The notes below the pieces were generated by a model that was given only the letters and a program-made list of their open reading frames with translations, made no database searches and was not told where the DNA came from. A program made the translations under genes and the position numbers. Positions 48,443 to 64,000 of a DNA stretch of 64,000 bases are shown here, in pieces. Source of the DNA: Jiella soli (GTDB taxonomy: Bacteria; Pseudomonadota; Alphaproteobacteria; Rhizobiales; Rhizobiaceae); contig NZ_JAJAVB010000016.1 in assembly GCF_020615385.1 (NCBI RefSeq), positions 49,332 through 113,331 of the forward strand, in the 5' to 3' direction. How positions within the stretch are numbered: the first letter of the stretch is position 1; each line of letters opens with the position of its first letter.

Positions 48443-50659
48443 ATGTTTTCTGCCTTTGCCCGCAATGCCGTCCTCGGCGGCACGGCGCTCGCGCTCATCG
48501 TTGGCGCGGCGACCCCTCTGCACGCTCAGCTGAGCGACGCCATCAACGACGCGATCCTTGGAGGCCGCAGTCCTCGCGCGCCGGATTCCCCGCCGACCGT
48601 CGATCTGCCGGCGACCCCGGTGGCACCGCCGCCCGCGGCCGCCCCCGCGCCTCCGGCCCCGGAGGCGCCGGATCCGGCGGCGCAGACGACCCCGGCCCTC
48701 GACACGGCGCCTGATCCTTCCGCCGCGGCTGCGCCAGCCCCGACGCCCGCTGCCGACACCGGCGGCACCTCCGATTCCGATACGACGTCGCCGACGCCGG
48801 TGGCCCTGCCGGCCCAGCCGCAGAATGCGGCCGGCTCCGGCGATCTGTCGACAGGCGACGAGCCGTCGCTGGAGCCGGGCATCCGTGTCTCGCAGGAGCA
48901 GATTTCCAGCGGCGCGGTGAACTTCCGCCAGGTCCAGGAGATCGGCCGGCACCTGTTCACCCAGTCCTTCACCACCGCCGACGGTTATGGTGAGGGGCCG
49001 GAGGGGCCGCGCGAGAAGAAGCGCCACCAGTCGACCTCCGGCATCTCGCCGATGGCCGCCTATGTGCATTTGCCCTGGATGCGCGTTGATGGCCTCGATT
49101 CCCAGGCCTGCCTCGAGTGCCACAACGCTTCGGGCTTCGAAGTCTCGGGAAGCCAGACCGCGGCACGCTCGGTCCGCCCCGACCGGGTGTCCGGCGCCGG
49201 GCCGATCGCGTCGGCCGCGATCATCAACCCGCTGCTCGAGGATCCCGCCCCGCAATGGGTGCTGGAGGCCTTCCGGGCGCGCGGGATCTCCGATCCGAGC
49301 AATCTCTACGCCGTCTTCCTGCGCAATCCGCCGCATGTCTTCGGCGCCGGCTACACGCAGAAGCTCGCCGAGGAGATGACCTTCGATCTCCTGTCGCAGC
49401 GGCTGTCGGCCGTGCGGCAGGCCGACGCCCAGCGCGGCCAGGCCTTCGAGATCCAGCTCAATTCGAAGGGCAGCGACTTCGGCAGCTATGCCGTGCGCAT
49501 CGACGCCAACGCACCGCCCGTGCCCGCCCGGCTGCAGCCCTGCGGCAGCAATCCGGGCATCACCGAGCGGTGCAGCACGATCGACGGCGTCAGCGAGGAC
49601 CTTGTCATCAGGCCGTTCCAGTGGAAGGGCATCGCCTCCAATATGCGCAATTTCGTGCGCGACGCCCTCAACTTCCATCTCGGCATGATGCCGGTGGAAC
49701 TCGCCCCCGACGAGGCCGATGCCGACGGGGATGGCGTTCCGAATGAGGTCTCCTATGGCGAGGTCACGGCGCTGACGGCGTTCGCGCTCGGCAACCGTCC
49801 GCCCGAGGAGATGGCGCCGGCGACGGCCGAACTCCAGGCCCAGGTGGCGCGGGGGCGGGCGCTGTTCGAGGGAACAGATACAGCGGGCGCCGGCCCCAAT
49901 TGCGCCGCCTGTCACCAGCCGACCAAGACGATCCTCAATCCGGTGGTCACAGTCCACGATCCCCGCACGCCGGAGGTCGCCGCGATCGCCTCGCGGGAAT
50001 CGTCCAACGGCAATCACGGGATGATCGTCGCCGGCAACGGCGTCGGCCTCGGCCAGGCGACGCCGCCGGAGCTGCCGCTGCCGGTCGAACGCGAGTTCTC
50101 CGAAGGCGGAGGCACGCCTGCCAGGGAGCGGGCGATCCTCAACGAAAGCGCGCGGGCGGAATCGGCCGGGCGCACCTTCCCCAAGGGCGCGGCCTTCGCG
50201 TTCAACCTCAACATGGACACGCCCTTCGAGAGCCAGGCGCTGCTCGCCTCCGAGCCGCGGCTGCCCTTCGATACGACCGGGGCGATCGCGGTCTCCCTGT
50301 TCTCGGACCTGAAGCGCCATGCGATGGGTCGGTGCCTCGCCGACATCATTCCGCAGCAGACCGACCGCAAGGGCGTGTTCGTGCGCCGCGACCTCTATCT
50401 GACGCGCCCGCTCTGGGGCGTTTCCGACACCGGACCGTGGCTCCATGACGGGCGTGCGCTGAGCCTCAAGGATGCGATCCTGCAGCATTCGGACGATGCC
50501 TGCGCCGACGACGGATCGGGCCATGTCAGCGAGGCGAACGGCGCGGTCGCGGCCTTCAGGGCGCTTTCGCCGGCCGATCAGGATGCGCTTGTCGCCTTCC
50601 TGCACACCCTGCGGCTGCCGCGTGACAAGACCTATGCGAGCGTCGATCCGAAGCTCTGA
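48443..50659 (+). CDS. Secreted di-haem oxidoreductase (DHOR / cytochrome c peroxidase-like)
   Basis: The 738-residue protein has a signal peptide (about 1-30), a Pro/Ala/Thr-rich linker of about 120 residues, and a large catalytic part with two c-type haem sites, CLECH at 223-227 and CAACH at 487-491. The C-terminal GPWLHDGRALSLKDAILQHSDDA is the conserved block of the MauG/CcpA/DHOR group. Members reduce peroxide or oxidise protein side chains. The start at 48443 has GGGAGG upstream and begins the signal peptide; a longer reading from 48398 is unlikely. A hairpin terminator follows, so this gene may be a separate transcript from the OmpA and caspase genes. Confidence 0.82.
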   Translation: MFSAFARNAVLGGTALALIVGAATPLHAQLSDAINDAILGGRSPRAPDSPPTVDLPATPVAPPPAAAPAPPAPEAPDPAAQTTPALDTAPDPSAAAAPAPTPAADTGGTSDSDTTSPTPVALPAQPQNAAGSGDLSTGDEPSLEPGIRVSQEQISSGAVNFRQVQEIGRHLFTQSFTTADGYGEGPEGPREKKRHQSTSGISPMAAYVHLPWMRVDGLDSQACLECHNASGFEVSGSQTAARSVRPDRVSGAGPIASAAIINPLLEDPAPQWVLEAFRARGISDPSNLYAVFLRNPPHVFGAGYTQKLAEEMTFDLLSQRLSAVRQADAQRGQAFEIQLNSKGSDFGSYAVRIDANAPPVPARLQPCGSNPGITERCSTIDGVSEDLVIRPFQWKGIASNMRNFVRDALNFHLGMMPVELAPDEADADGDGVPNEVSYGEVTALTAFALGNRPPEEMAPATAELQAQVARGRALFEGTDTAGAGPNCAACHQPTKTILNPVVTVHDPRTPEVAAIASRESSNGNHGMIVAGNGVGLGQATPPELPLPVEREFSEGGGTPARERAILNESARAESAGRTFPKGAAFAFNLNMDTPFESQALLASEPRLPFDTTGAIAVSLFSDLKRHAMGRCLADIIPQQTDRKGVFVRRDLYLTRPLWGVSDTGPWLHDGRALSLKDAILQHSDDACADDGSGHVSEANGAVAAFRALSPADQDALVAFLHTLRLPRDKTYASVDPKL

Positions 50660-50699
50660 GACCGAAGGGGCCGGCCGCTCGGCCGGTCGGCGACGAAGA

Positions 50700-50734
50700 G
50701 AGCCGGCGCTGTGGGAAGCCCCCTGCGCCGGCTC
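50700..50734 (+). terminator. Hairpin after the di-haem oxidoreductase gene
   Basis: GAGCCGGCGC (50700-50709) pairs exactly with 50725-50734, a 10-bp stem with a 15-base loop, followed by CGTCTTG. It lies 41 bases after the stop codon and 88 bases before the next start. Confidence 0.6.
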
Positions 50735-50821
50735 CGTCTTGAGTGCACCGGCGCAAAGCGTTCTGCGTCTTCCACTTGGCGGGGAGAATGCAAACCGCAC
50801 CTGAGGCGAGGAGAAACGACA

Positions 50822-51916
50822 ATGCGCTCAAGACTGACGACGACCGCCCTCTGCTCGACGCTGATCACTGCCGGGATCGCCATGCTCGCGGGGCCGGCGA
50901 GTGCCGGCGACTACGGCTCGGCCAACTCCGCCCGCATCAACCACATCATTTCCGGTCACGCTTCGGCGGGCCACTATGGCGGCCGCACCTCTTATGTCGC
51001 GCCCGGTTACGGCTATGGCGACTACGGCAACTCTACCGGCTACCGCTCCAGCCACGGCTATGACGACTACGGATATGGCGGCGACATCGTCTATCGCGAC
51101 GGCCGCGTGGGCTACGACTATGTCGGCTCCCACGACCTCGACGATTTCGGCTCGCATGTCGTGCGTTACGTGACGGTTTCGCCGCGCACCGAAGTCGTCG
51201 AACGCCCAATCGTCGTCGTCCATCGGGGCGAGCCTGTCGAGACTGACGCTTCGGCGGGCGACACCGCTTCGGTTTCCCGTGCCGATGTCGGCCGGCCGCT
51301 GTTCTTCGGCTCCGGTTCGACCGAATTGTCCGATGAAAGCAGGGTGAAGCTCGACAAGATCGGCGAGATCATCGCCGCTTACAGCGACACCGAGGCCCAG
51401 ATCCTGATTTCCGCCTATACCGACGCCAGCGGAACCGAGGAGCAGAACCAGGCGATCTCGCGCAAGCGGATCGAGGCCGTACAGTCCTACCTTGCCGAAA
51501 AGTTCCAGATCCCGGCCGCCGAGTTCGTCACCGCTGCGGTCGGCGCCGCGAATGTCGAGGAGACCAAGGACCCTTACGCTGCGGAGAACCGCCGCGTCGT
51601 GATCTCGCTGCTCAATCTCGATCTCAGCCGCGAGGGCGGGGCGCCCGTCGCCGCCGCGCAGGAGGCGGCTCCGGCGATGCAGCACGGAGATCATGCCGAA
51701 GCGCCGTCCATGATGCATGAAGGCCATGCCATGGCCGAGACCGCGGCTCCGGTGGTCGAGGAAGCGCCTGCCGCTTCGGATGCCAGGCGCTGCTCCGTGC
51801 CCGCCTATCCCCATGCCGGTGGCATGCGCAGCGGCCGGCTGATCTCCGTCGGCTTCCAGGATATCGACGATTTCGGCGGCGGCCGGCTGATCGAGGTCTG
51901 CGACGTCTCGCATTGA
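50822..51916 (+). CDS. OmpA-family protein with Tyr/Gly-rich N-terminus and His/Met-rich tail
   Basis: The 364-residue exported protein has a signal peptide (about 1-28, ending PASAG), then about 90 residues rich in Gly, Tyr, Ser and His (YGYGDYGNSTGY), a linker, and an OmpA C-terminal domain: RPLFFGSGSTELSDESRVKL, then ILISAYTDASGTEEQNQAISRKRIEAVQ and ENRRVVISLLNLD, which binds peptidoglycan. There is no visible beta-barrel. After it comes a His/Met-rich stretch (MQHGDHAEAPSMMHEGHAM) that resembles copper-binding sequences, and a C-terminal segment with two cysteines. GGCGAGGAG precedes the ATG at 50822. It stands between the di-haem enzyme and the caspase-like gene. Confidence 0.8.
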   Translation: MRSRLTTTALCSTLITAGIAMLAGPASAGDYGSANSARINHIISGHASAGHYGGRTSYVAPGYGYGDYGNSTGYRSSHGYDDYGYGGDIVYRDGRVGYDYVGSHDLDDFGSHVVRYVTVSPRTEVVERPIVVVHRGEPVETDASAGDTASVSRADVGRPLFFGSGSTELSDESRVKLDKIGEIIAAYSDTEAQILISAYTDASGTEEQNQAISRKRIEAVQSYLAEKFQIPAAEFVTAAVGAANVEETKDPYAAENRRVVISLLNLDLSREGGAPVAAAQEAAPAMQHGDHAEAPSMMHEGHAMAETAAPVVEEAPAASDARRCSVPAYPHAGGMRSGRLISVGFQDIDDFGGGRLIEVCDVSH

Positions 51917-51933
51917 GGCAGGTATCTTCCGGT

Positions 51934-51960
51934 GGGGCCGGTCCTTGGCGGATCGGCCCC
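51934..51960 (+). terminator. Weak hairpin after the OmpA gene
   Basis: GGGGCCG (51934-51940) pairs with CGGCCCC (51954-51960), a 7-bp stem 17 bases after the stop codon. No T-run follows. It could attenuate rather than stop read-through into the caspase gene, whose start is 174 bases after the OmpA stop. Confidence 0.4.
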
Positions 51961-52090
51961 GCACGCAAAGGTTTCATAGGTCTCAGACCTTTCATCTGCT
52001 TGATGCCTCTGCGTTAGGTCCTGCGACGGGGGCCTGTTCCACAAGACGAAGTTCATGCTAGAACTCTGACGTCCAGGAAGGAAACCTCCC

Positions 52091-55000
52091 ATGAGGGGAC
52101 GCGCGTCGAACCTTGGCCGGCTCTTCGGCCGACTGACCGGCATCTTCGCCGCCTGCCTTTTGGTCGTCGCGGGCCCGGCACGGGCCGAGAGCGCATCAGC
52201 CTATGGCGGCCTGCCGCTGATCGAGCAGGCGCGCTCAGAGGTTACCGGCGCAATCGCCGGCATCCTGACCTCCAACTGCATCGCGCCGGATGCGCCCCGG
52301 CCCTACGACCTGACCTATCTCGGCCTGCCCGCCGGCGATCCGCATGTCGGCGAGAATGTGCGCTCGCGCCTCAACAGCGCTCTTCAGGAGGCGATCAGCA
52401 CCTCTGGCCTCGCGATCAACGTCAACACCGCCGAGAATGCGCGGGTTCTGGTTCCCATCCTCGGCGCGGGCGGCGACAGCAGCCGGCGGCTGGAGCAGGT
52501 GGTGAACCGGCTCTACGCCTCGACCTTTGCCGTCGCGGTGCAGGCATCGCGGCCGAGCGTCGAGGTCGCCCGGCTGAGCATCTCGATCTTCGCCCGGTCG
52601 GACCAGGGCTCCTACAATTGCAATCGGACGGTGACGCTGGATGTCGACCTTTCGACCTTCACGGTGATCGACAATTTCCGCGGCTCCGGCGATCTGGTCG
52701 AACTGTCGGGCGCCTATCAAGCCTCGCTCGCCGCGATCGCGCCGAAGCTGAAGGACGCCAAGAGCCTGCGCTTTCGCCCGTCGATGAGCCTCGAGGGCAG
52801 CTGCCAGCTCTCCTTGCGCGCCTCCGACACCTTCACCACCGCCTATTTCCAGCTGCAGGACGGCGACTTCGCCGCCTGGCTAGACGGCACGCCGCTCCCT
52901 TCGCTGCGCAGCGGCGGCGGGTCCTCGCCGAGCGACGGCATCACCATGGACGTCGTCTACCGCATTCCGCATGCGTCCTCGCGCATCATCGACCTGACGA
53001 TCACCATCTCCTCCGGCGAGGACGTCATCGCCCGCCGGCGCATCCTCGCCATCGTCGACGAGGGCATTCTCGACGGCTGCCGCCCGGCGTCGGCGCAGTT
53101 CCTCGCGCAGTCCGCCGCCACGCCGACGGATGACGATCAGGCCGCAGGCTCCGGCGCTTCCCCCTCCAAGACGGCCGCTTCCAAGACCGCAGCCCTGGCG
53201 GAGCAGGCGAGACCGCAAGTGGCTGCGCTTGAAGCGGGAAGCGCCGCGGGCGCATCCGCCCCCGAGACCGCTGCGAAGGCGGAGGACGGACCGGAGCCGG
53301 AAGACAAAACGAGCGCGGGTGAAGGATCCACCGGCGACCAGCCCGCGCAGACAAAGACCGCGGCGTCCGATCCGGCGAAGACGGCCTTCGACGCATCCGC
53401 GGAAAACCAGCCGAAGCCGGTGGACCTTTCCGATACCGACGGCGCCGAGGCCCAGGCTGCGGCCGCCTCTGCCGACGATCAGGCCGCGAGCGTCCCGGAT
53501 GCCGGCGCCGACGATGCCGGACAGCCCCAGCGCTATCTCTTCATCATTGCCAATCACGAGTACAAATATGCCGAGTCGGTCCGCTTTGCCGAGAACGACG
53601 CGGCTTCGGTCGAGAAGCTGTTCGCTGAAGAGTTCGGGCTGGCGCCCGCCAACATCACCCGATACGACAATCTGACCAAGGCCGAGCTCGAGTATCTGTT
53701 CGGGGACTCCAACGATCCTGGCGTCATCGGCAATCAGATCACCGCGCGCGACGCCGAGGTCTATGTCTATTTCGTCGGTCACGGCTCGCGCGCCTTCCTC
53801 GCCAAGTCGGAAGACGCCACGCCCTATCTGCTCGGCTCCGACTCGCGGCCCGACCGGCTCGACCTCACCGGCTACGACCTCAACCTCCTGACCAAGCAAC
53901 TGGCCGACATGCGCGAGCGGTCGTTCCCCAACGGGCGCGCCATCGTGTTTCTCGAAAGCTGCTTTTCCGGCCGGTCCGATGCAGGCGATCTCGTCACCGG
54001 GATCAGCGCGCCGAATTCCGGCGTCACGCCGGTGATCAAGGCGGAGAAGGGCGTGACGATCGTCGCGGCCGCGCATTCCGACCAGGTCGCGGTCTGGGAC
54101 TCCGACTATCGGCACGGCGTCTTCACCGACGCGCTCGTCTCGGCCTTTTACGGCGAGGCGGACCAGACCCGCTTCGGCGGGGATGGAGACGGCGTCATCA
54201 CCGTCGGCGAACTCGAGAAGTTCCTGCAGAACCGGATGTCCCGGCGCATCAAGCAGGTGCGGCCGGAATTCCGGCAGACGCCCGAGATCACCGGTGCCGA
54301 GAAGTCGGACGTCCTGTTCCGCCTGCCCGAGGACGGGGTCGCCCGCGAGGAATCGACCGAGCGCGAACACTACGAGCTGCTGACGGCGCGCGAGATCCTG
54401 GAATCGAACGACCTGTCCGGCGTCCAGCCCTATCTGCGCAATTGCGTCTACTGCCCGATGAAGGACGAGTTGCGCGAACTCGTGCAGACCGAGCGCCGGC
54501 GCGAGGCGGTCTGCCGCGCCGAGCAGCGCCATGCGGCCGATCTCGCCAAGAGCGGCAGCGCCCTCGAAATCAGCGCCTATCTGCAGAGCTGCGACTGTTG
54601 CCAGAACAGCAAGGAGCTGAAGGACAAGCTCGCCAGCCTCAGTCCGCCCGATCCCAAGCAGCTGAAGGACGAGGCGCTCTGGGCCGCGGCCAAGCGCGAC
54701 GGGACGATCGACGCCTTCTGGTACTACAACAAGAACTGCGAGGACTGCTCCAGCCGCGCCGAGGGCGAGAAGAAGGTCGCCGAGATATGCCAGCGCGCGC
54801 AGGACACGGTGGATGCCCAATGGCCGGCGGACAAGTCCTATGACGGGCTGCTGCGCTATCTGGCGAGCTGCAACGACATGCCGCCGGTCTGCGGCAGCTG
54901 CCGGCGCATGTCGGAGGCGATCAAGCTGGTGGCGGAGATCGAGAGCCGGCCGGACTTCTCCAGCCCGGTGAAGGGGGAGGTCGGCGTGCCGGAGCATGCC

Positions 55001-55402
55001 ACGCCCGCGCAAACGCCGGACCAGGCCGCCTACAAGGCCGCCATGCTGGCAACCGAGTCGGACCCCTATGACGCCTTCCTGCGGAGCTTTCCAAACAGCG
55101 TCTACGTGCCGGAGATCAAGGCGCGGCTGACCAGGCTGCTCTCGGAGGAGGCCGACTGGGAAGAGGTGTCCAACACCCACACGGTCGAAGGTTATCGCCG
55201 CTACATGCTGCAATATCCGAGCGGGAAGCACATGCAGGAAGCGCGCGACCGCATCGATCTTCTGGGGGACGAGACCGACTGGCAGCAGGTCCTGGTCGAG
55301 CGCTCCCGGGACGCGCTGGTCGGCTACCTCTCCAAGCGCCCGAACGGCCGCTACTCGGACGAGGCGCGCCGGCGGCTGCGCGAGTTCGACGAAGCCGGTT
55401 GA
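52091..55402 (+). CDS. Exported caspase-like (C14) protein with cysteine-pair repeats
   Basis: The 1103-residue protein starts with a signal peptide (about 1-33). An N-terminal domain (about 35-340) with AYGGLPLIEQARSEV and RNRLYAS-like blocks is of unknown family. After an Ala/Lys/Glu-rich linker (about 345-475) comes a caspase domain (about 480-745): RYLFIIANHEYKYAESVRFA, catalytic His564 in YFVGHGS and Cys624 in FLESCFSG. An acidic GGDGDGVITVGEL segment resembles an EF-hand-type loop. The C-terminal 330 residues hold about seven short helical repeats, four with CxxC-type pairs (NCVYC, SCDCC, NCEDC, VCGSC), then three of the form FPNSVYVPEIKARL. It is probably periplasmic. Confidence 0.82.
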   Translation: MRGRASNLGRLFGRLTGIFAACLLVVAGPARAESASAYGGLPLIEQARSEVTGAIAGILTSNCIAPDAPRPYDLTYLGLPAGDPHVGENVRSRLNSALQEAISTSGLAINVNTAENARVLVPILGAGGDSSRRLEQVVNRLYASTFAVAVQASRPSVEVARLSISIFARSDQGSYNCNRTVTLDVDLSTFTVIDNFRGSGDLVELSGAYQASLAAIAPKLKDAKSLRFRPSMSLEGSCQLSLRASDTFTTAYFQLQDGDFAAWLDGTPLPSLRSGGGSSPSDGITMDVVYRIPHASSRIIDLTITISSGEDVIARRRILAIVDEGILDGCRPASAQFLAQSAATPTDDDQAAGSGASPSKTAASKTAALAEQARPQVAALEAGSAAGASAPETAAKAEDGPEPEDKTSAGEGSTGDQPAQTKTAASDPAKTAFDASAENQPKPVDLSDTDGAEAQAAAASADDQAASVPDAGADDAGQPQRYLFIIANHEYKYAESVRFAENDAASVEKLFAEEFGLAPANITRYDNLTKAELEYLFGDSNDPGVIGNQITARDAEVYVYFVGHGSRAFLAKSEDATPYLLGSDSRPDRLDLTGYDLNLLTKQLADMRERSFPNGRAIVFLESCFSGRSDAGDLVTGISAPNSGVTPVIKAEKGVTIVAAAHSDQVAVWDSDYRHGVFTDALVSAFYGEADQTRFGGDGDGVITVGELEKFLQNRMSRRIKQVRPEFRQTPEITGAEKSDVLFRLPEDGVAREESTEREHYELLTAREILESNDLSGVQPYLRNCVYCPMKDELRELVQTERRREAVCRAEQRHAADLAKSGSALEISAYLQSCDCCQNSKELKDKLASLSPPDPKQLKDEALWAAAKRDGTIDAFWYYNKNCEDCSSRAEGEKKVAEICQRAQDTVDAQWPADKSYDGLLRYLASCNDMPPVCGSCRRMSEAIKLVAEIESRPDFSSPVKGEVGVPEHATPAQTPDQAAYKAAMLATESDPYDAFLRSFPNSVYVPEIKARLTRLLSEEADWEEVSNTHTVEGYRRYMLQYPSGKHMQEARDRIDLLGDETDWQQVLVERSRDALVGYLSKRPNGRYSDEARRRLREFDEAG

Positions 55403-55462
55403 CGGTGATGACCATGTGCCGGCGCCTCTCTGGATGAGTTCGTTCCCAGCGGAAGGTTCGCC

Positions 55463-56956
55463 ATGACGCAGTCCAACGCGTTGTTCACCTGGTCGGAGAC
55501 GGCCCAATCGGAGTTCGATGCCGTCCTCGACGGCAGCGAGACCTCGGATCGCTTCCGCTTCGCCCTGGCGCAGACGATCGCCAATGGCTGGTCGTCCAAT
55601 CGCGACAAGCCGGTCTGGGCGCTGGCGGCCCTGTTGGCGGCGCTCGGCGAGGTCAAGGCCGGGCTCGGCACGAGCCTCGACTTCCTCTGGAGCCCGGCGC
55701 CGTCCATGCTGACGGCGCTCAGAAAGTCCGGCCACACGGCCGTGCAGGCGAACGAAGGCGGGTCGGTGCAGCTGAGGGCCCCCGGCGGGGCCCTGATGGT
55801 CGATCGGTTCCGCCTGAAGCTGCTCCAGAAATATCTGGAATTCCTCATCACCTGCAACGGCTTCCAACATGCCGAGGAGATCGCCCGGCAGCTCGATGCC
55901 TGCCTTGCCGGCGGGCTCGCCGACGCCGCTACGATCGAGGCGAGCGTCCGAATGATCTCGAAGATCCTCTATCGCTACCGGACCGAGCATTTCGACGACG
56001 GCCATGCGACCTCGGCCTTTTCGATCCTCCGCGCCTATCTCGCCACGGCCGGTGACAAGGTCACCGACGACAGCGTGCTCGAATTCTGGGTCTCGGAAGA
56101 AAACAGCTACTTCCGCACCTATCAGGCCAGCTACTTCGCCATGAAGGACTATGTCGACGCGCTGCGGGGCGCGCGGGCGCGATCTGCCATGCGCAATGCC
56201 GCCGAGGTCGACGCGCCCGGGATCGCCGGCGCTCTCTCGGTCGATTTCGTCGATCCGTTCGAGCGCGAGGACGAGGGCGATCTGGATGGGGACGGGCCGG
56301 ACCTGGAACTCGCCGCCGAGGCGGCCGAGAGCGCGGCGGAGGAGGCCGGGCAGGGCGAGGAAGCCGCGCTCGCAGCCCTGAGGGCGATCGAGGCTGGCAC
56401 GGTCAAGATCCTGAAGAAGAAGGAGGGAATGCTCGCCGCGCCGATCCTCTCGGCGGGTGTCTTCGGCTGCGCCCTGCCGACGGCTACCTTACGGCTCCTG
56501 GCCTTCCACCCGATCCAGTCTGCGCTTTCCAATAGTCTGAGGACAGGCCGGGCAACGCTGCCGCTCGAAGAGCGGGTCACCTGCGTGGAAGCCCGAACCT
56601 ACACGGCGCTGATGGGGGAGGTCGCCGAATTGGAAACTGCGATGCGCGACTGGTTGAAGATCGCGCTCGCCGTCAGATCCGAGGAAGCGGCCGCCGACGT
56701 CCGGGCAGAGACGGTCCGCTCTGAGGGGCTCGCGCTCCTCAAGAGCCGCCGCAGCCAGTCGCTGGCGCGCTCCCGCGCGGAGCTCGCCGAGGCCTTCGCT
56801 GCGGTCGAAACCGCCCTTGTCACCGTGGCGCGCGGGCTCGGTGCCTACCGTGCCGTCGTTCTCCAGCGGCTGGCCGGCGACCGCCTCGATGCCGGCTTCG
56901 AAGCCGACCGCGAACGCTTCGCGGCCCAGCTGCGGCGCCTCTACCTCGTTTCCTGA
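55463..56956 (+). CDS. Cytoplasmic protein of unknown family in the protease cluster
   Basis: This 497-residue, mostly helical protein has no signal peptide. It begins MTQSNALFTWSETAQSEFDAV and has an acidic central segment (about 262-300, including EREDEGDLDGDGPDLEL). The patch AAPILSAGVFGCALPTATLRLL in the second half is the only hydrophobic stretch and is too polar on both sides to be a clear membrane helix. The C-terminal third is rich in Ala, Arg and Glu, probably coiled coil. I recognise no family. It starts 60 bases after the caspase gene with GCGGAAGG upstream, and 44 bases separate it from the next gene, so it belongs to the operon. Confidence 0.65.
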   Translation: MTQSNALFTWSETAQSEFDAVLDGSETSDRFRFALAQTIANGWSSNRDKPVWALAALLAALGEVKAGLGTSLDFLWSPAPSMLTALRKSGHTAVQANEGGSVQLRAPGGALMVDRFRLKLLQKYLEFLITCNGFQHAEEIARQLDACLAGGLADAATIEASVRMISKILYRYRTEHFDDGHATSAFSILRAYLATAGDKVTDDSVLEFWVSEENSYFRTYQASYFAMKDYVDALRGARARSAMRNAAEVDAPGIAGALSVDFVDPFEREDEGDLDGDGPDLELAAEAAESAAEEAGQGEEAALAALRAIEAGTVKILKKKEGMLAAPILSAGVFGCALPTATLRLLAFHPIQSALSNSLRTGRATLPLEERVTCVEARTYTALMGEVAELETAMRDWLKIALAVRSEEAAADVRAETVRSEGLALLKSRRSQSLARSRAELAEAFAAVETALVTVARGLGAYRAVVLQRLAGDRLDAGFEADRERFAAQLRRLYLVS

Positions 56957-57000
56957 CGCGCAAGACCGCGCCCTGACCCAAAGCAAGAAAGGACGGCTCC

Positions 57001-57546
57001 GTGAGCATCCGGCTCGAATCCATCGACACTCCCGAAGACCTCGCGGAGGCCCGGCGCCGCTTCGTCGAGCGCCAGGCCGCCCGCCGTCTGGCCTCGCCGG
57101 AGACGGATGGCGTCGGCGCCGGATCTGCCCCGCGGATCGACGTCGCCGCCTTCCTGTCGGGCGAGGCGAGTCCGCCGGCGGGCACGCCTGTTCCGCTCGG
57201 TCTGCTGCGGCTGAAGCGCTATCAGAGCCAGGCCAAGAGCCTCGCCTTCTCCCCCGCTGCCAGGGCTGCGAGCACCGACACGCAGATCGCCCGCACCATC
57301 GGCGCCTTCCGGCTTGAAGTCCTCGAGGAAGAGGATGCCGTCTTCGTCGTGGTGGGCGGTCCCGAAGGCTTGGCGCTGCCGCGCCAGCTGACGTTGATCC
57401 ATGAGGGAATGCGCCAGTCGCTGGACCTGCCTCTCGGTAAGCCTATCGGCAAAATCGTCCAGACGGGACTTGATCCATTGTCTAGGGAAGATCAAACTGT
57501 CATAGACATGTTGAAAGATCCGGAAACGGAGATCTACCTTTCGTAG
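57001..57546 (+). CDS. Small cytoplasmic protein of unknown family (GTG start)
   Basis: This 181-residue protein starts at a GTG with AAAGGA about ten bases upstream. The N-terminus SIRLESIDTPEDLAEARRRFVERQ is helical and charged. The C-terminal half (LEVLEEEDAVFVVVGGPEGL, RQLTLIHEGMRQSLDLPLG, DQTVIDMLKDPETEIYLS) reads as alternating strands and helices. No signal peptide, no membrane segment and no recognisable motif. It lies between the unknown 497-residue protein and the Lon-like membrane protein, in the same direction and with short gaps. A subunit or regulator role is only a guess. Confidence 0.6.
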   Translation: MSIRLESIDTPEDLAEARRRFVERQAARRLASPETDGVGAGSAPRIDVAAFLSGEASPPAGTPVPLGLLRLKRYQSQAKSLAFSPAARAASTDTQIARTIGAFRLEVLEEEDAVFVVVGGPEGLALPRQLTLIHEGMRQSLDLPLGKPIGKIVQTGLDPLSREDQTVIDMLKDPETEIYLS

Positions 57547-57631
57547 GAATAGGTTGGGTATCGTGCATCTGGCGCTAGCAAGCGAGAGAATCGGTCGCCT
57601 GGGAGCGGGTCAATTTACCTGGTGAGCCGCA

Positions 57632-58906
57632 ATGGATTCGCTTGCAACCCTACGGAATGATCGGCCGGGTCCGGATGCTCAGCTCGTTATTCGCACAGGG
57701 TCCCGATCGACGCGATCCGACGTGACGCGGTCCGACATGAAGCCGGGTCCGAGACTGATCATTCCGACGACGGCGGGGCCGGTCGTGATCCGCGGCGTCC
57801 GGCGCCGCCCTCGGCTGCCGGCAAGCTACATGGCGATCGCCGGGGATTTTCGTCCGCTGGCCCTGTCCGGTGATTATGACCGCTTCGTCAACGGCCCGCT
57901 GCGGCAGGTCGCGCCCGATCTGCCGGCCGTGGAACTCAGCCTCGACGGGGATCTCGATTGCGGGCGCTCCTGGGAGCTGCCGGTCCTGATCGCGCACTGC
58001 CTGGAACTGGCGGGGCTCTTGGACGAAGCGACGCCGACCCTTGTCTGGGCGACCGGCATGGTGGACGCCGATCTCGACCCGCTGCCCGCCGAATACCACC
58101 TGCCGATGAAGCTCGCCCTGAGCGAAGCCCTGTTCAGCGAGGCGCGGGCACGGGACGAACGGATCGTGATGGTCGTCCCGCCGCCGCTGACACCGGCCGA
58201 GCGCGAGGTGGTCGAGGCCTTCGCCCGCCGCTACGGCGCCGAACTCATGATCGCCGAGCGTCTTGCCGACGTCTTCGCAGCCTTTGATCTGCCGCTTCCG
58301 GGCGATGCCGGGGAGAAGCTGCCTGCCCTTGCCGGTGGAGCGGAGACGGGCGCCGATGCTGCGGAGCCGGACGGCAGGGGAAGGCGCCTTTCGCGCATCC
58401 CGACGCTGATCGCGCTGTCGCTCCTGGCGGTGACTGGCAGCGCCGGACTTGCCTATCTCGTGTTTTCCTCTGGGCTTTCCACTGAGCCAACGAACCCGGG
58501 ACATCCGCCCGAACGCGCAGAGTTCGCGGCCGGCCCGGTTCTTTCGGTGGACGGGCTTTACGCAGAGGACAGAGCGGCATGCAAGGAGCGGATTTTCTAT
58601 GGCCGGCCGCTGACGACGGAACCGGCGCTCCAGGGAGCCGACGGGCTCGTCGTCGCCTCCAGGCCCGGGCTCTGCGGCCTTCGCTTTCGCAATCTCGCCG
58701 ACGGTCCGCGGGCTCTGACGCTCGATCCGCGCCTCGCCGGCCTGGGCATTCCCGGCAATGCCTCCCTCGTCTCGGACACCGATCTCGGCGCCGGCGAAAC
58801 GACGATCTTCTTCTTCTCGCGCTCGCCGCAGGACCTCGATGCACAGGCGGTGCTGCGCGATGCGGCGTCCGGGCGGGAAGACCGGGTGACCATCCGCATT
58901 CAATGA
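57632..58906 (+). CDS. Membrane protein with a diverged Lon (S16)-like domain
   Basis: The 424-residue protein has one membrane helix (about 256-279) dividing a cytoplasmic N-terminal part from a periplasmic C-terminal domain. The N-terminal part (about 95-215) follows the Lon protease fold: DCGRSWELPVLIAHCLELAG would place Ser113 as nucleophile, VWATGMVDADLDPLP is the following strand-turn, and LPMKLALSEALF places Lys160, a Ser-Lys spacing of 47 (43 in E. coli Lon). There is no AAA+ ATPase part. The periplasmic domain has C317, RP325, C348 and RN353, and shares these spacings exactly with the next gene product. Catalysis is inferred, not shown. Confidence 0.6.
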   Translation: MDSLATLRNDRPGPDAQLVIRTGSRSTRSDVTRSDMKPGPRLIIPTTAGPVVIRGVRRRPRLPASYMAIAGDFRPLALSGDYDRFVNGPLRQVAPDLPAVELSLDGDLDCGRSWELPVLIAHCLELAGLLDEATPTLVWATGMVDADLDPLPAEYHLPMKLALSEALFSEARARDERIVMVVPPPLTPAEREVVEAFARRYGAELMIAERLADVFAAFDLPLPGDAGEKLPALAGGAETGADAAEPDGRGRRLSRIPTLIALSLLAVTGSAGLAYLVFSSGLSTEPTNPGHPPERAEFAAGPVLSVDGLYAEDRAACKERIFYGRPLTTEPALQGADGLVVASRPGLCGLRFRNLADGPRALTLDPRLAGLGIPGNASLVSDTDLGAGETTIFFFSRSPQDLDAQAVLRDAASGREDRVTIRIQ

Positions 58907-58961
58907 ACCGGCATGCCGCAACGGCCGCGTGGCGCGGTCGGCAGGAACAGGGAGAAGGCGC

Positions 58962-59669
58962 ATGACCGGCATGGGAGGACCGGCGCGGTATCGGGCCAGA
59001 ACCTGGCTCCTGACGCGCCTTGCTGCCACGTTTGCATGGACCGCGCTCGTCGCGGCGACGCCGAGCCTGGCCGAAAGCGACATCAACGCCATCCTCGGCA
59101 ACCAGCCGACAGAGGCGCCGCAGGCCGTGCAGCCGCCGGTGCAGCCGGGACCGGCGGCGACCGTGAACTCTCCGCAGATCGGCGGCGAGACCGCGGGCGC
59201 TCCGATCAGCCGGGACGGCTCGGACGAGCGGTGGGTCAAGAGCGACCACCCGCTTCGCAATCTCAGCGTCATCTCGGTGCAGCCGCTGCCCTCGGAGACC
59301 TGTCAGGATGTTCTCTTCGATATCCGCCCCTCGACCCGTGTGCGCCATGCGCCGGAGATCGGCGGAACGATTGATTTCGACCTCGGCCAGCTGTGCCTTC
59401 TCGGCATCCGCAACGAATCCGATCAGCGCACCGTGGTGGTGCGGGTGGGCGACGAACTGCGCACCATCGCGATCGTCTCCGACAGCCGGCTGAACTCCGG
59501 CATGGCGCTGGGTCCCGGCCGCGAGATCCTCGTCCCGATCCGCCCGCTCGACATCAAGGCGCTGACCATCCTGGTCGATGCGGTCTGGGACGATCAGATC
59601 GACAAGGACAATCCGACGGTCGAGTCCTTCTCGATCCACGTCACCCATCAGAGCAAACCCGGAAGCTGA
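58962..59669 (+). CDS. Secreted protein sharing the periplasmic domain of the Lon-like protein
   Basis: The 235-residue protein has a signal peptide (about 1-38, ending TPSLAES), a Pro/Gln-rich linker and a beta-rich domain (about 95-230). Key residues C114, R122-P123, C145, R150-N151 are spaced 8, 31 and 5 residues exactly as C317, R325-P326, C348, R353-N354 in the preceding membrane protein, so the two domains are homologous and the cysteines probably form a disulfide. The ATG at 58962 has GGGAGAAGG upstream. Its stop overlaps the ribosome-binding site of the protease gene that follows. No named family was recognised. Confidence 0.7.
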   Translation: MTGMGGPARYRARTWLLTRLAATFAWTALVAATPSLAESDINAILGNQPTEAPQAVQPPVQPGPAATVNSPQIGGETAGAPISRDGSDERWVKSDHPLRNLSVISVQPLPSETCQDVLFDIRPSTRVRHAPEIGGTIDFDLGQLCLLGIRNESDQRTVVVRVGDELRTIAIVSDSRLNSGMALGPGREILVPIRPLDIKALTILVDAVWDDQIDKDNPTVESFSIHVTHQSKPGS

Positions 59670-59680
59670 AGGCCGTCATC

Positions 59681-60739
59681 ATGATCGTGACGCACACCAT
59701 CCGAGGCAAGAGCGGATCTCGGCATGCGCGGGCGATGCGCCTCGCCGCTTCGCTGATTGCGCTGATCGCCGCAGCGCAGACGGCCGAGGCCGCCGACTTC
59801 CGGCTGCCGGCGAACGATTACGGCAAGGTCGTCCTGCCGGTGCACGAGTCGCTCGGCGATGCCGCCCGCGAGGTCGTCGATCGCCAGAACGTCTTCGAGC
59901 CGGTGGGCCTCCTCCGCGACGACGATCCGATCCGCCTCCTGACGCGGGCGGTGGGACGCCTCGACCTGAAGGTGGAGGAGGACGGCAAGCAGTTCCTGTC
60001 CACCTGCACGGCGACCATTGTCGAGGGCAACATGGTCCTCACCAATTATCACTGCATTCCCGGCTTCACCGGCCGCGTGCTCGAGGCCTCGATCCTGCTC
60101 GACTACTACGGGTCGGACAGCAAGACGACGCGCATTCCGGTCGAAACCATGCCGGTCGAGAAGGATCCCAAGCTCGACTATTCGCTGACCCGTCTCGCCG
60201 GGCTCGCGCCCGCCGATCTGGTGCCGGTGCCGATTTCGCATGATCACGTGCAGCCGCTGGAACGCCTGACCCTCATCCACCACCCGGCCGGCCAGCCGAA
60301 GATGATGACCTCGTTCCGCTGCTATGCCGCACCCAACCAGGGCGACGGCAAGATGCTGCGGCATCGCTGCGACACGCTGCCGGGGTCCTCCGGTGCGCTG
60401 ATCTTCGACATAAACCGCCATGTCGTCGGCCTGCACCACAGCGGCGGCCTGTCGATCAACGATCCCGCGAGCTTCAATGAAGGCTCGAACATGGGGGACA
60501 TCCTCGACGAGAGCCAATTGCTGCGTACCTCGGTCGACGCGTCGACGACCGCCGGGACGCCCGGCGTCCCCGCCGTCTCCGCTGCCGGCTCGGACCGGCC
60601 GAGCGCGGGATCGGGCGCGGCGCCGGCGACCGAGATCGTCACGGACAGCCAGCCATCGGCTCCGAGCCGGGCCGATGCGGGGACGCCGCGGCCGGGCTCG
60701 CCGGCCGATCCCCTAAACAGCATGATCGTTGGCCAATGA
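59681..60739 (+). CDS. Exported trypsin-like serine protease (S1 family)
   Basis: The 352-residue protein has a signal peptide (about 1-37, ending TAEAADF) and a chymotrypsin-fold domain (about 40-290). The triad is His124 in LTNYHCIPG, Asp166 in KLDYSLTRL and Ser237 in LPGSSGALIF, where GSSGA replaces the usual GNSGG. Two cysteine pairs are likely (STC/YHC and FRC/HRC). It resembles the stand-alone 'serine protease/trypsin-like peptidase' group, not HtrA, since there is no PDZ domain. A Ser/Ala/Pro tail of about 60 residues follows. GAAGG at 59668-59672 overlaps the previous stop, giving translational coupling. Confidence 0.82.
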   Translation: MIVTHTIRGKSGSRHARAMRLAASLIALIAAAQTAEAADFRLPANDYGKVVLPVHESLGDAAREVVDRQNVFEPVGLLRDDDPIRLLTRAVGRLDLKVEEDGKQFLSTCTATIVEGNMVLTNYHCIPGFTGRVLEASILLDYYGSDSKTTRIPVETMPVEKDPKLDYSLTRLAGLAPADLVPVPISHDHVQPLERLTLIHHPAGQPKMMTSFRCYAAPNQGDGKMLRHRCDTLPGSSGALIFDINRHVVGLHHSGGLSINDPASFNEGSNMGDILDESQLLRTSVDASTTAGTPGVPAVSAAGSDRPSAGSGAAPATEIVTDSQPSAPSRADAGTPRPGSPADPLNSMIVGQ

Positions 60740-60781
60740 GCTCCGATGCCACCTGAAATCGCTCTGGGCTTTCCACCCCTT

Positions 60782-60797
60782 TGTTGGAGTTCCAACA
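60782..60797. promoter_or_regulatory. Inverted repeat in front of the second OmpA gene
   Basis: TGTTGGA-GT-TCCAACA is a perfect 7-bp dyad with a two-base spacer, 22 bases before the OmpA ATG. It could be a regulator site or a small mRNA hairpin that controls translation. It is too short and too close to the start to be an intrinsic terminator of the protease gene. Confidence 0.4.
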
Positions 60798-60819
60798 GCA
60801 GCAACAAGGCGTAGCAATC

Positions 60820-61797
60820 ATGGCAACGATTACGCGTAGAACAAAAGGCATGGAGTATCGGGCGGTGCGGTTGGTGCTCGCGGCGCTTCTGGCGACGGCT
60901 GCACCGATCGCCACGCCACAGCTCGCCACGCCGGCTGCGGCGCAGCAGAACCATCAGATGAGCGAGCGCGCCGAGCGGATCGTGCGGTCGCTGCGGCCGG
61001 CGGCACGCAGCCGCTATTCGGACAGCGCCTATATCCAGCGGATCATCGAGATGGAGATCCCCCTGCCGCACAAGCGCGGCAGCCGGTCGGTCCGTCTGAA
61101 CTACAATCATTCGATCGATCTTGCGGTCTATTATGATTTCGACAGCGCGAAGATCACCGGCGAGACCGCTGACGTCCTCGACGATCTCGGTGCGGCGCTT
61201 GCGACGACGGAGCTCGACGGCAGCCGCTATCTCGTCGCCGGCCACACCGATTCCGCGGGTTCCGAGGGCTATAATCAGTGGCTGTCGGAGCGTCGCGCCC
61301 TCTCGGCCAAGCGCTATCTGGTCGAGCATTACCGGATCGATCCCGAACGCCTGGTGGTCGTCGGCTTCGGCGAGACGCGCCTTGCCGACCGGCGCCGGCC
61401 GAAGGACGGCATCAACCGCCGGGTCGAGATCACGCTGATCGCCGACGACTACAGCGGACCGACCTCGGAAAGCTTCCGCGCCCCCGACACAAGCTATCTG
61501 CCGCGCGGAGCGTCCGAGCCGACGGCGGAGGAACTCGGCCTCGTCGAATACGAAGGACCGTCCTCGGCCGACATCGACTGCGACGCGGCCTCCCGGCTGC
61601 AGGATCCGCGGCCGACGCGAACCGGGCTCGACGACTTCGGCAGCCGGCGTACGCCGGTGCCGTGCGGCGATCCGCCCGACGACGCTGCTGCTGCGGCGCC
61701 GGTGGCTCTGCCCCCGGTTGCGGAGCCGCAGGAACCGGTCGAGCCGGTCGAGCCGGTGAACCCTGCCGCCGGGCAGAACTCCGCGATCCAGAACTAG
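60820..61797 (+). CDS. OmpA-family protein
   Basis: The 325-residue exported protein has a signal peptide ending near PAAAQQ (about residue 42), a short helical region (MSERAERIVRSLRPAARSRYSD), then an OmpA C-terminal peptidoglycan-binding domain: IDLAVYYDFDSAKITGETADV, LVAGHTDSAGSEGYNQWLSERR, RYLVEHYRIDPERLVVVGFGE, DGINRRVEITLI. The C-terminal 110 residues contain two cysteines and a Pro/Glu repeat (EPVEPVEPV). The ATG at 60820 was chosen; MEYRAVRLVL at 60850 is an alternative. It would anchor the exported cluster products to the cell wall. It lies 80 bases after the trypsin-like gene. Confidence 0.82.
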   Translation: MATITRRTKGMEYRAVRLVLAALLATAAPIATPQLATPAAAQQNHQMSERAERIVRSLRPAARSRYSDSAYIQRIIEMEIPLPHKRGSRSVRLNYNHSIDLAVYYDFDSAKITGETADVLDDLGAALATTELDGSRYLVAGHTDSAGSEGYNQWLSERRALSAKRYLVEHYRIDPERLVVVGFGETRLADRRRPKDGINRRVEITLIADDYSGPTSESFRAPDTSYLPRGASEPTAEELGLVEYEGPSSADIDCDAASRLQDPRPTRTGLDDFGSRRTPVPCGDPPDDAAAAAPVALPPVAEPQEPVEPVEPVNPAAGQNSAIQN

Positions 61798-61901
61798 GGG
61801 AGGTGCCGTACGCCCACGCATCCTTCCCGCCAGAAAGTCGAGAGGCGACTGCCGCTCGAATCCATCGCAGCCATTGAACCTTCCCGTTTCGGAGACCCGA
61901 T

Positions 61902-62951
61902 ATGAGAATGCTTGCCAAGACTGCCGCCCTCGCCATGTTCGGCGTCGCCCTGTCCACGACCGGCGTGTTAGCGGCCACCGTGAATATCGTCGTGATGCAG
62001 GAGGACTGGGATCCCGAAAGCCTGCCGCGCAACAACCGCATCCAGAACGCCGTCCTCTCGGAGTTCAACCAGACGCTCAACGCCCCGGCCTACCAGTCGG
62101 TGCTGAAGCGCTACGGCATCGAGGGCATGGACGTCTATGACGAGACCAGCGTCTCGCTGAACTTCTACCAGCAGGATCGCCAGCGCCGGACCGACGAGGA
62201 GCTGATCTCGCTCGCCCGCACGGTCAAGAACCCGACCCTCGACGTCGTCGTTCCCTACACCCTCTATGCCCGGGCGGTGACCGATCCCTACACGCAGATC
62301 GTCAAGCTGCAGATGTCGCTCAACTACCGGGCGCTCGACGTGCGCAGCGGCCGCTTCTTCGGCGGCGACAACCTGGACATCGACACCGCTGGCGTGCCCT
62401 TCACCGGCTGTGCCACCGCCATCAACGGCACCCAGGCCGACCCGCACTGCGTGAAGGAGTTCGTCTCGCAGAACGGTGAGAAGCTCGCCCGCAATGCCGG
62501 CAACAAGCTCGCCATCCAGCTCGCCGCGCTGCTCGGCCGGAAATATTCCAGCTCGGACAGCTACGACGACTCCAGCTCGGAGAACACGGCCGCGAACGAG
62601 GCGATCGAGACCGACGTTGCGCATGCCGATCGGGGGACGATCGTCCACGAGAGGCGCTCCTCGGCCTGCGGCAACCTCCCGACCACCTATGCGGTCAAAT
62701 TCCGCGGCTTCGAGCAGCGGCAGGTGAACGCGGTCGAAGAGTACATGGCCTTCTGGAAGTGCGCGATCAACCTGAACGTCTCGGACTCCGACTTCTCCGA
62801 GGTGACGTTCCAGTACAAGACCCGCGCCGACCAGCAGCGCGTCCTGCGCAACATCCGGCTGATGCTCGAACTGATGGGCGTCGTCGCAGAACCGCAGACC
62901 ATCGGCTCGAACGAGATCGTCGTCGAGGTCCTCGGCCTGCGCGAGAATTGA
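61902..62951 (+). CDS. Secreted two-domain protein of unknown family
   Basis: The 349-residue protein has a signal peptide (about 1-24, ending GVLAA). The first domain (about 25-210) opens TVNIVVMQEDWDPESLPRNN and includes DVVVPYTLYARAV, then LQMSLNYRALDVRSGRFFGG, which looks like the CsgG/FlgT/TolB-N type of periplasmic fold. A Ser/Asp-rich linker follows. The second domain (about 250-349, YAVKFRGFEQRQVNAVEEYM) resembles a ferredoxin-like FlgT/CsgG-associated module. Five cysteines occur. The comparison is by pattern only. It is the last gene before a strong hairpin. Confidence 0.6.
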   Translation: MRMLAKTAALAMFGVALSTTGVLAATVNIVVMQEDWDPESLPRNNRIQNAVLSEFNQTLNAPAYQSVLKRYGIEGMDVYDETSVSLNFYQQDRQRRTDEELISLARTVKNPTLDVVVPYTLYARAVTDPYTQIVKLQMSLNYRALDVRSGRFFGGDNLDIDTAGVPFTGCATAINGTQADPHCVKEFVSQNGEKLARNAGNKLAIQLAALLGRKYSSSDSYDDSSSENTAANEAIETDVAHADRGTIVHERRSSACGNLPTTYAVKFRGFEQRQVNAVEEYMAFWKCAINLNVSDSDFSEVTFQYKTRADQQRVLRNIRLMLELMGVVAEPQTIGSNEIVVEVLGLREN

Positions 62952-62958
62952 GACCGGC

Positions 62959-62985
62959 GCGGCGCCTTCGACTTGAAGGCGCCGC
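62959..62985 (+). terminator. Hairpin after the two-domain secreted protein gene
   Basis: GCGGCGCCTTC (62959-62969) pairs exactly with GAAGGCGCCGC (62975-62985), an 11-bp stem with a five-base loop, eight bases after the stop. TCCCGCC follows, so there is no T-run. It may end the operon that starts at the caspase gene and leave the subtilase as a separate transcript. Confidence 0.65.
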
Positions 62986-63045
62986 TCCCGCCGCGCGGCC
63001 ACGTCGGCCCTTTCGCTCATCCCCGCTTTCCCGGAACCGATTTCG

Positions 63046-64000
63046 ATGTGCAAGGCTGAAGTCCGTTTCCCGCTCGCCGCTTCCTCCGCCGTCGTCGCCG
63101 GCCTTCGGCTGACGATCGCCTCGGCGGCGCTGACTGTCCTTCCTTTCGCGCCCGGCGCCATGGCCCAACAGAGCCGCGCCGAAGCCGCGCGGCAGATTTC
63201 CCCGACCGCCGCCCCGGCGCTGAAGACCCCCGCCGTCCGGCTGATCGATCCGACCCGCGTCATCGTCACCCTGAAGCCGGGGGCGAGCCACGAAAGCCTC
63301 GTGACCGAAATGAACCGGCGCAAGGAATCGGCCGGCGGCGCTCTCGACCAGGCGACTGCCGCGGTCGCCGCCATGCGCCGCCAGTCCGGCCAGAGTTTCG
63401 TGCTGCCGCTCACCGCCGGCCAACGCGAAGCCAATATCGCCGTGCGGCCCGTCGCGGTCGCCGCGACCGGCGGTGATTTCTCCTCCGCGCTCGACGCGCG
63501 CGCCTCCCAGATGGTCGAGGCGCTGCGCCGCATGCCCGAGGTCGCGGCGGTCGAACCGAGCGTCATGTGGTTTCCGACGCAGGCGAACCCGGCCGATGCC
63601 ATGAATGCCCTGATCGAGGGGTCCACTGCTCCCAGAGGCGGCCGCGTCATCGCCGATACGCCGGATTCCGGTTCGATCGACGCCATCGTGGGAGCACCGC
63701 CGGCCCGCAATCCCGTCCCGGCGCTTGCCGTGACGCCCCAGGCGCTTCCGGACGATCCGCTGCTGCCGCTGCAATGGGCGCTGAAGACCAATGCGAGCGC
63801 CGTCACGAACGATGCGCTGCCGGGAGGAAGTGGCTTCGTCGCCCATGCGGGCCTCAGCGGCTCGGCGAACCAGGCGGCGCCGGTCGTCGCGATCATCGAC
63901 ACCGGCCTCGTGAAGAGCCATCAGGACCTTGCTACGGGCGAGGTCCTCCCAGGCTACGACTTCATCACGCTGCCCTTCGTCGCCAATGACGGCGACGGCC
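63046..64000 (+). CDS. Subtilisin-like (S8) protease, cut by the window end
   Basis: The frame from the ATG at 63046 stays open to base 64000, giving 318 residues of a longer protein. A signal peptide ends near GAMAQQ (about residue 43). A propeptide-like region follows (RVIVTLKPGASHESLVTEM, then VAAVEPSVMW), then DDPLLPLQWAL, the usual junction to an S8 catalytic domain, and VVAIIDTGLV with the catalytic Asp285. LPGYDFI and NDGDG match the secreted alphaproteobacterial and xanthomonad subtilases. The catalytic His and Ser, and any C-terminal anchor or autotransporter domain, lie beyond the window. Confidence 0.85.
   Translation, partial: MCKAEVRFPLAASSAVVAGLRLTIASAALTVLPFAPGAMAQQSRAEAARQISPTAAPALKTPAVRLIDPTRVIVTLKPGASHESLVTEMNRRKESAGGALDQATAAVAAMRRQSGQSFVLPLTAGQREANIAVRPVAVAATGGDFSSALDARASQMVEALRRMPEVAAVEPSVMWFPTQANPADAMNALIEGSTAPRGGRVIADTPDSGSIDAIVGAPPARNPVPALAVTPQALPDDPLLPLQWALKTNASAVTNDALPGGSGFVAHAGLSGSANQAAPVVAIIDTGLVKSHQDLATGEVLPGYDFITLPFVANDGDG

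Follow-up and report, generated by a model that had tools for sequence, protein, structure and literature searches.

A conserved proteobacterial gene cluster centered on a predicted membrane-anchored relative of Lon protease

A cluster of envelope genes in Jiella soli is strongly supported as a real conserved unit, a "system"; its gene order recurs in many genomes and the cluster is thus beyond chance. The core comprises two cytoplasmic proteins, U497 and U181, and LONL, a predicted membrane-anchored relative of Lon protease without an AAA+ domain. Exported proteases and peptidoglycan-binding OmpA proteins surround this core in varying combinations. We give about even credence to the interpretation that the cluster encodes a conserved trans-envelope sensing and proteolysis system. 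Questions persist about what bacterial caspases do physiologically, and the conflict systems from which they are best known operate in the cytoplasm; here, many genomes link exported caspases to wall-binding proteins and to a defined core that includes a Lon-like domain. The cluster offers a concrete gene set for asking whether bacteria signal proteolytically across the envelope, and it is available in culturable Methylobacterium and Aurantimonas/Jiella strains.

Gene content of the cluster

In the window (the whole stretch of J. soli DNA that was analyzed, 64,000 nucleotides), the list of open reading frames places eleven genes on the plus strand, from position 48443 to 64000 and beyond, all co-directional and with neighboring gene ends and starts close together:

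48443..50659, plus strand: exported di-haem oxidoreductase/peroxidase-like protein (PF06537, 5.5e-7; CLECH and CAACH are two CxxCH motifs)
50822..51916, plus strand: OmpA-domain protein 1, exported, peptidoglycan binding (PF00691, 1.7e-14)
52091..55402, plus strand: exported caspase-like protein of 1103 aa (C14, PF00656, 2.9e-9)
55463..56956, plus strand: U497, core protein of the cytoplasm, all helical (new family, no family match)
57001..57546, plus strand: U181, cytoplasmic core protein (new family, no family match)
57632..58906, plus strand: LONL, with a Lon-protease-like N-terminal domain, a transmembrane (TM) segment, and a periplasmic C-terminal domain (predicted model, alignment)
58962..59669, plus strand: S246, exported, related to the TM/periplasmic part of LONL (LONL profile match)
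59744..60739, plus strand: exported trypsin-like protease, gene start approximate (Trypsin_2, PF13365, 1.9e-13)
60838..61797, plus strand: OmpA-domain protein 2, exported, peptidoglycan binding, gene start approximate (PF00691, 2.4e-19)
61902..62951, plus strand: S349, secreted, new family (alignment)
63046..64000, continuing past the window to L003:850, plus strand: exported subtilase S8 (PF00082, 2.3e-46; D/H/S motifs present)

The co-directional run of eleven genes, with four protease folds and two OmpA proteins, had been proposed from the sequence alone and was confirmed by Pfam matches, by motifs, and by comparison of the LONL model with Lon domains. The caspase, which is the sole Peptidase_C14 match in the whole genome, retains an intact H and C dyad (GHG and ESCFSG), together with an EF-hand-like loop and a repeat-like C terminus; for the Methylobacterium caspases, GHG and DACFTG were read from the alignment. 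The catalytic motifs of the trypsin-like protease (TNYHC, LDYSL, and GSSG) are also intact. N-terminal hydrophobic export segments are readable in the secreted proteins, some of them under the simple hydropathy threshold used, and no such segment was found by hydropathy in U497 or U181. The di-haem gene (9/58 loci) is an accessory retained by the Aurantimonas/Jiella group.

No NTPase was found in the window cluster. The sequence-only reading was correct on this point for the window; some gammaproteobacterial relatives do have a Ser/Thr kinase, which in one case is joined to the Lon-like domain. Similarly, the extent that it had assigned to the cluster holds within the window, and the conserved cluster also runs on past it to a CxxCH-bearing protein and then a YceI-domain protein, both of which recur in Aurantimonas and Jiella. 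A promoter scan of the cluster returned 0 promoters, and a terminator scan returned a count at chance level.

Conservation of the core and variation of its partners

We analyzed 58 loci from Alpha- and Gammaproteobacteria. U497 and U181 each occur in 57 of these, the three core genes are found together in 57/58, and the core gene order is kept in 51/56 loci. Four of the five exceptions represent overlong open reading frames or overlapping starts, and L026 is truly rearranged. The partners vary: S349 is present in 38/58 loci, OmpA proteins in 34/58, caspase-related proteins in 34/58, trypsin in 27/58, S246 in 15/58, the SLT lytic transglycosylase in 13/58, and subtilase in 12/58.

Nearly the whole window order is found in Aurantimonas, Jiella, Fulvimarina, and one Rhodobacteraceae metagenome-assembled genome (MAG). 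Methylobacterium has the caspase, an extra gene, U497, U181, LONL, trypsin, OmpA, and S349 in that order, and Methylorubrum retains most of the window order with one extra gene. A Methylobacterium aquaticum plasmid carries the caspase, the unknowns, LONL, a serine protease, OmpA, and S349, ordered as in the window. Synteny of the caspase, the two unknown cytoplasmic proteins, the Lon-like gene, the trypsin-like gene, and OmpA, which had been suggested as a check on the cluster, is thus kept in Aurantimonas, Jiella, Fulvimarina, the Rhodobacteraceae MAG, and Methylobacterium. Independent occurrence of the neighboring genes was sought for U497, LONL, and S349 and was not found.

A LONL search across the order was positive in 12/297 genomes, and a contig scan yielded 42 loci. 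Among the 398 Pseudomonadota genomes sampled, 14 contained LONL, with the core again together. U497 was present in 13 of the 398, 12 of them in common with LONL (Fisher 4e-20, uncorrected for kinship), and S349 in 11, nine of them in common with LONL (Fisher 2e-13, also uncorrected for kinship); the two S349-positive genomes without LONL are fragmentary drafts. A query with U181 only was positive in 15/289 genomes across the class. Of the 13 firm further U181 loci, 10 have LONL and 9 have U497 as a neighbor, and some of the remaining loci lie at contig ends; U497 was not recognized in L133, L134, and L136. Pairwise distances for LONL correlate with those for U497, U181, S349, and trypsin (Spearman 0.72 to 0.77, uncorrected for shared ancestry).

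Around the core, many alphaproteobacterial loci have caspase, trypsin, subtilase, OmpA, and S349. At many loci in Alpha- and Gammaproteobacteria, the gene immediately preceding U497 encodes an SLT lytic transglycosylase (Pfam, 5e-24), accompanied by genes for small membrane and periplasmic proteins that form a conserved set. Both the caspase/OmpA/S349 set and the transglycosylase/membrane module occur round the single core of L137. At many loci, the core is accompanied by an incomplete set of exported proteases or by none; because these proteases vary among loci, they are not obligatory. Of the protease cascade in the envelope proposed by the sequence-only reading, the location is supported, and the cascade itself is unproven: the analysis found no activation order, substrate, or cleavage site, and many loci have an incomplete set of exported proteases or none.

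Two accessory families resemble ExbB/ExbD by eye. Comparison of their profiles with the genome's own ExbB-type and ExbD proteins was negative, and MotA_ExbB/ExbD profiles run against the accessory genes in relatives matched 1/12 members (E 0.1); thus, an ion-driven motor is not claimed. ABC/HlyD-type secretion genes were noted by eye beside the core in one locus only (L066).

Fusions and domain arrangements at three further loci bear on topology. The gammaproteobacterial locus L094 encodes a fusion protein that combines the Lon-like domain with a Ser/Thr kinase, a TM segment, and a TonB_C domain, which argues that the Lon-like side is cytoplasmic. The protein encoded downstream of LONL in L094 consists of an S349-like periplasmic domain, a TM segment, and an FHA domain. 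FHA proteins of like layout are found in L064 and L097; the S349 profile matches that of L064, which was included in building the profile, and not that of L097. At both loci, the adjoining kinases carry TM segments and PG_binding_1 or PEGA domains, and a PP2C-like gene is present in L064. These fusions favor placing the Lon-like side in the cytoplasm and the S349 side in the periplasm, and they favor a role in signaling.

The Lon-like domain of LONL and the other new families

LONL is laid out as a Lon-like domain (residues 37 to 222), a TM helix at about residues 256 to 278, and a C-terminal domain predicted to be periplasmic. The Lon-like domain has no match in Pfam, in NCBIfam, or in a PDB sequence search. 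Its AlphaFold model has a mean pLDDT of 81, with values >90 across most of residues 41 to 220. A Foldseek search of the model against the PDB gave nothing at E <0.001. With VIA-align, the top 50 PDB matches to residues 37 to 222 of the model were all Lon-fold chains (50/50; Z 11 to 14), including LonA, LonB-type, LonC, RadA, ComM, and BrxL.

In an alignment of 37 homologues, G111, S113, W114, P117, H122, T141, G142, and K160 are invariant, giving a catalytic-type motif of GxSW plus K160. The Ser-Thr-Lys spacing is similar to that of Escherichia coli Lon, for which we take the residues to be S679, T704, and K722. An hhalign comparison of LONL with the genome's own Lon paired TG and K160 with the TG and KEK of Lon in the catalytic-Lys region, at low probability. 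The part of LONL after the TM helix has two nearly invariant Cys residues (C317 and C348), and no AAA match was obtained in any LONL homologue. The modeled fold and these residues point to a membrane-anchored Lon relative that is probably a protease acting through Ser113 and Lys160. The Lon fold alone is insufficient proof of a protease because RadA and ComM, for which proteolysis is not the known role, share this fold.

U497, U181, LONL, S246, and S349 have no convincing Pfam or NCBIfam family and no PHROG family, and the U497-U181-LONL core has no PADLOC family either. PDB sequence searches with LONL, U497, U181, and two accessory membrane-family profiles gave no informative match. The U497 model (pLDDT 87) is helical, and its best PDB match was not above Z 5.8, with only the second half effectively compared. 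S246 is matched by positions 212 to 350 of the LONL profile (E 4e-9), and the S349 alignment reveals the conserved motifs EDxDxxSxPRN and RRxDxE together with two invariant Cys residues. No description of the core was found in the open-access literature. Three protein families, including LONL as a Lon relative, are new to databases, and the core is apparently undescribed.

Proposed mechanism, alternatives, and comparison with known systems

In the sensing and proteolysis model, cytoplasmic U497 and U181 would cooperate with LONL, which would be tethered to the inner membrane and bear a Lon-like serine protease domain (Ser113/Lys160). The C-terminal domain of LONL would reside in the periplasm and, with S246, S349, and the peptidoglycan-bound OmpA proteins, may monitor the condition of the wall or outer membrane. 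An alteration there would then be relayed through LONL to U497/U181. The exported caspase, trypsin, and subtilase would act in the periplasm, as would the lytic transglycosylase in other lineages. The peptidoglycan-facing partners (OmpA, 34/58; SLT, 13/58) support the wall-sensing reading. Proteolysis by LONL, the direction of signaling, triggering by envelope damage, and any sequence of cleavages are features that we infer. More broadly, and more tentatively, the cluster may represent a new class of trans-envelope machine, in which peptidoglycan state is coupled to exported lytic enzymes, the caspase type among them, by an ATPase-less, membrane-tethered Lon-type protease and two new cytoplasmic families; some variants would be wired to kinases.

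We give next to no credence to a chance neighborhood of ordinary secreted enzymes. Caspase, OmpA, trypsin, and subtilase are all common families, but the order is conserved across classes and U497, LONL, and S349 co-occur near-exclusively; synteny thus refutes this explanation. A constant core with varying hydrolytic partners would also fit an envelope conflict or defense system, in which a sensing core is served by swappable lytic effectors (caspase, trypsin, subtilase, and lytic transglycosylase) and, on breach, brings about death or arrest of the cell or keeps a phage or competitor from entering. Consistent with this are the sporadic distribution (14/398 Pseudomonadota genomes), the Methylobacterium copy on a mobilizable plasmid, with an integrase and a toxin-antitoxin pair close by, the malonyl-CoA synthetase gene, which neighbors the window cluster on its 3' side and lies on another contig or ∼1.2 Mb off in Jiella/Aurantimonas, and the AAA_21 and DUF4276 genes that adjoin L061. 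However, we regard a defense role as rather improbable: PADLOC families were absent except for weak OmpA/trypsin-domain matches, there is no phage record or PHROG match, no recognized defense genes lie beside most loci, and a large gene set is stably retained in Aurantimonas/Jiella.

The lytic transglycosylase immediately upstream of U497 in many loci, the conserved membrane/periplasmic set alongside, and the ABC/HlyD-type genes seen by eye next to the core in L066 could instead indicate a maturation or export machine. Here, the core and membrane module would build, or process, a structure at the surface or outside the cell, the proteases would trim secreted substrates, and the transglycosylase would open the wall. 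We consider this unlikely, as, S349 aside, the loci revealed no exported substrate family in common, the kinase and FHA links favor signaling, and the type I secretion genes occur in a single locus. It is also doubtful that the Lon-like domain is a scaffold as in RadA and ComM, with LONL a nonproteolytic membrane anchor and the exported proteases acting independently. The closest structural matches do include RadA and ComM, and the profile alignment to Lon is weak; yet Ser113 and Lys160 are invariant in 37 diverse sequences, along with G111, W114, H122, T141, and G142, and a scaffold need not retain both. Trans-envelope sensing and proteolysis is the reading that we prefer.

Among known systems, a 2020 survey of NTP-dependent conflict systems describes multi-peptidase operons, as well as iSTAND systems with OmpA/PEGA domains (PMC7159879). 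The iSTAND/VMAP vWA-MoxR ternary and NucA-trypsin-subtilisin systems share with our cluster the presence of several peptidase folds per operon and, in the iSTAND group, OmpA/PEGA domains (PMC7159879). In contrast, the window cluster has no MoxR, vWA, STAND NTPase, or NucA by Pfam and NCBIfam; its core families are different, and its proteases are exported. In the part of a 2012 survey that we consulted (PMC3501461), OmpA is listed in 14 predicted metacaspase operons and metacaspases are counted in Methylobacterium, and that part describes neither a shared core nor a Lon-like gene nor a system. PADLOC 2.0.0 retrieved nothing specific in the cluster, only weak matches to OmpA (ZorB) and trypsin domains. 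Threonine-phosphorylation modules composed of a kinase, PP2C, and FHA proteins act, for instance, in the regulation of type VI secretion. Some gammaproteobacterial loci share with these modules the kinase and FHA genes, and L064 also has a PP2C-like gene, whereas kinase, PP2C, and FHA genes are all absent from the window cluster. Among the neighboring genes that were read, none was noticed to belong to type VI secretion. Finally, LONL differs from Lon proteins (S16; LonA/LonB/LonC, RadA, and ComM) in having no AAA+ domain and no recognizable Pfam/PDB sequence similarity and in the N-terminal placement of its Lon-like domain, ahead of a TM helix and of a domain in the periplasm; nevertheless, it resembles them in its predicted fold (residues 37 to 222, Z 11 to 14) and, more tentatively, in the apparently Lon-like spacing of its invariant Ser and Lys residues.

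S349 relatives and membrane components

The genome that carries the window encodes a second, distant relative of the secreted S349 family (G000:C7:33137; L128:6634-7701), next to which none of the core genes (U497-U181-LONL) was found. At L095:13008-15239 and in its relatives, two conserved membrane protein families (alignments A7 and A8) appear ExbB- and ExbD-like by eye; profile tests did not support this resemblance. In a Hirschia MAG, genes that resemble those for a type I secretion ABC transporter and for HlyD lie immediately 3' of the Lon-like gene LONL (L066:11317-14492).

Enzymes and a repeat run around the core

An animal-haem-peroxidase-like protein is encoded upstream of the core in a single Hyphomicrobiales locus (L017:9092-11545), a place comparable to that of the window's exported di-haem enzyme, although the two enzymes differ. 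In Fertoeibacter niger, several copies of exported caspases with WD40-like repeats surround the core (L067:3358-18685). Near-identical HGRWGKPPTG-coding repeats form a run at L089:12899-13609, with the transglycosylase on one side and U497 on the other; this run is probably a non-coding tandem repeat.

Toxin- or defence-like gene pairs

Within a Methylobacterium cluster, a toxin-antitoxin-like pair (L055:9473-10188), assigned by eye as a PIN-type protein and an Arc/CopG-like partner, is flanked by trypsin and OmpA genes. At L061:13692-18752, the core is adjoined by an AAA_21 ATPase and DUF4276 gene pair, followed by a second pair of similar appearance; these pairs resemble known toxin or defence pairs.
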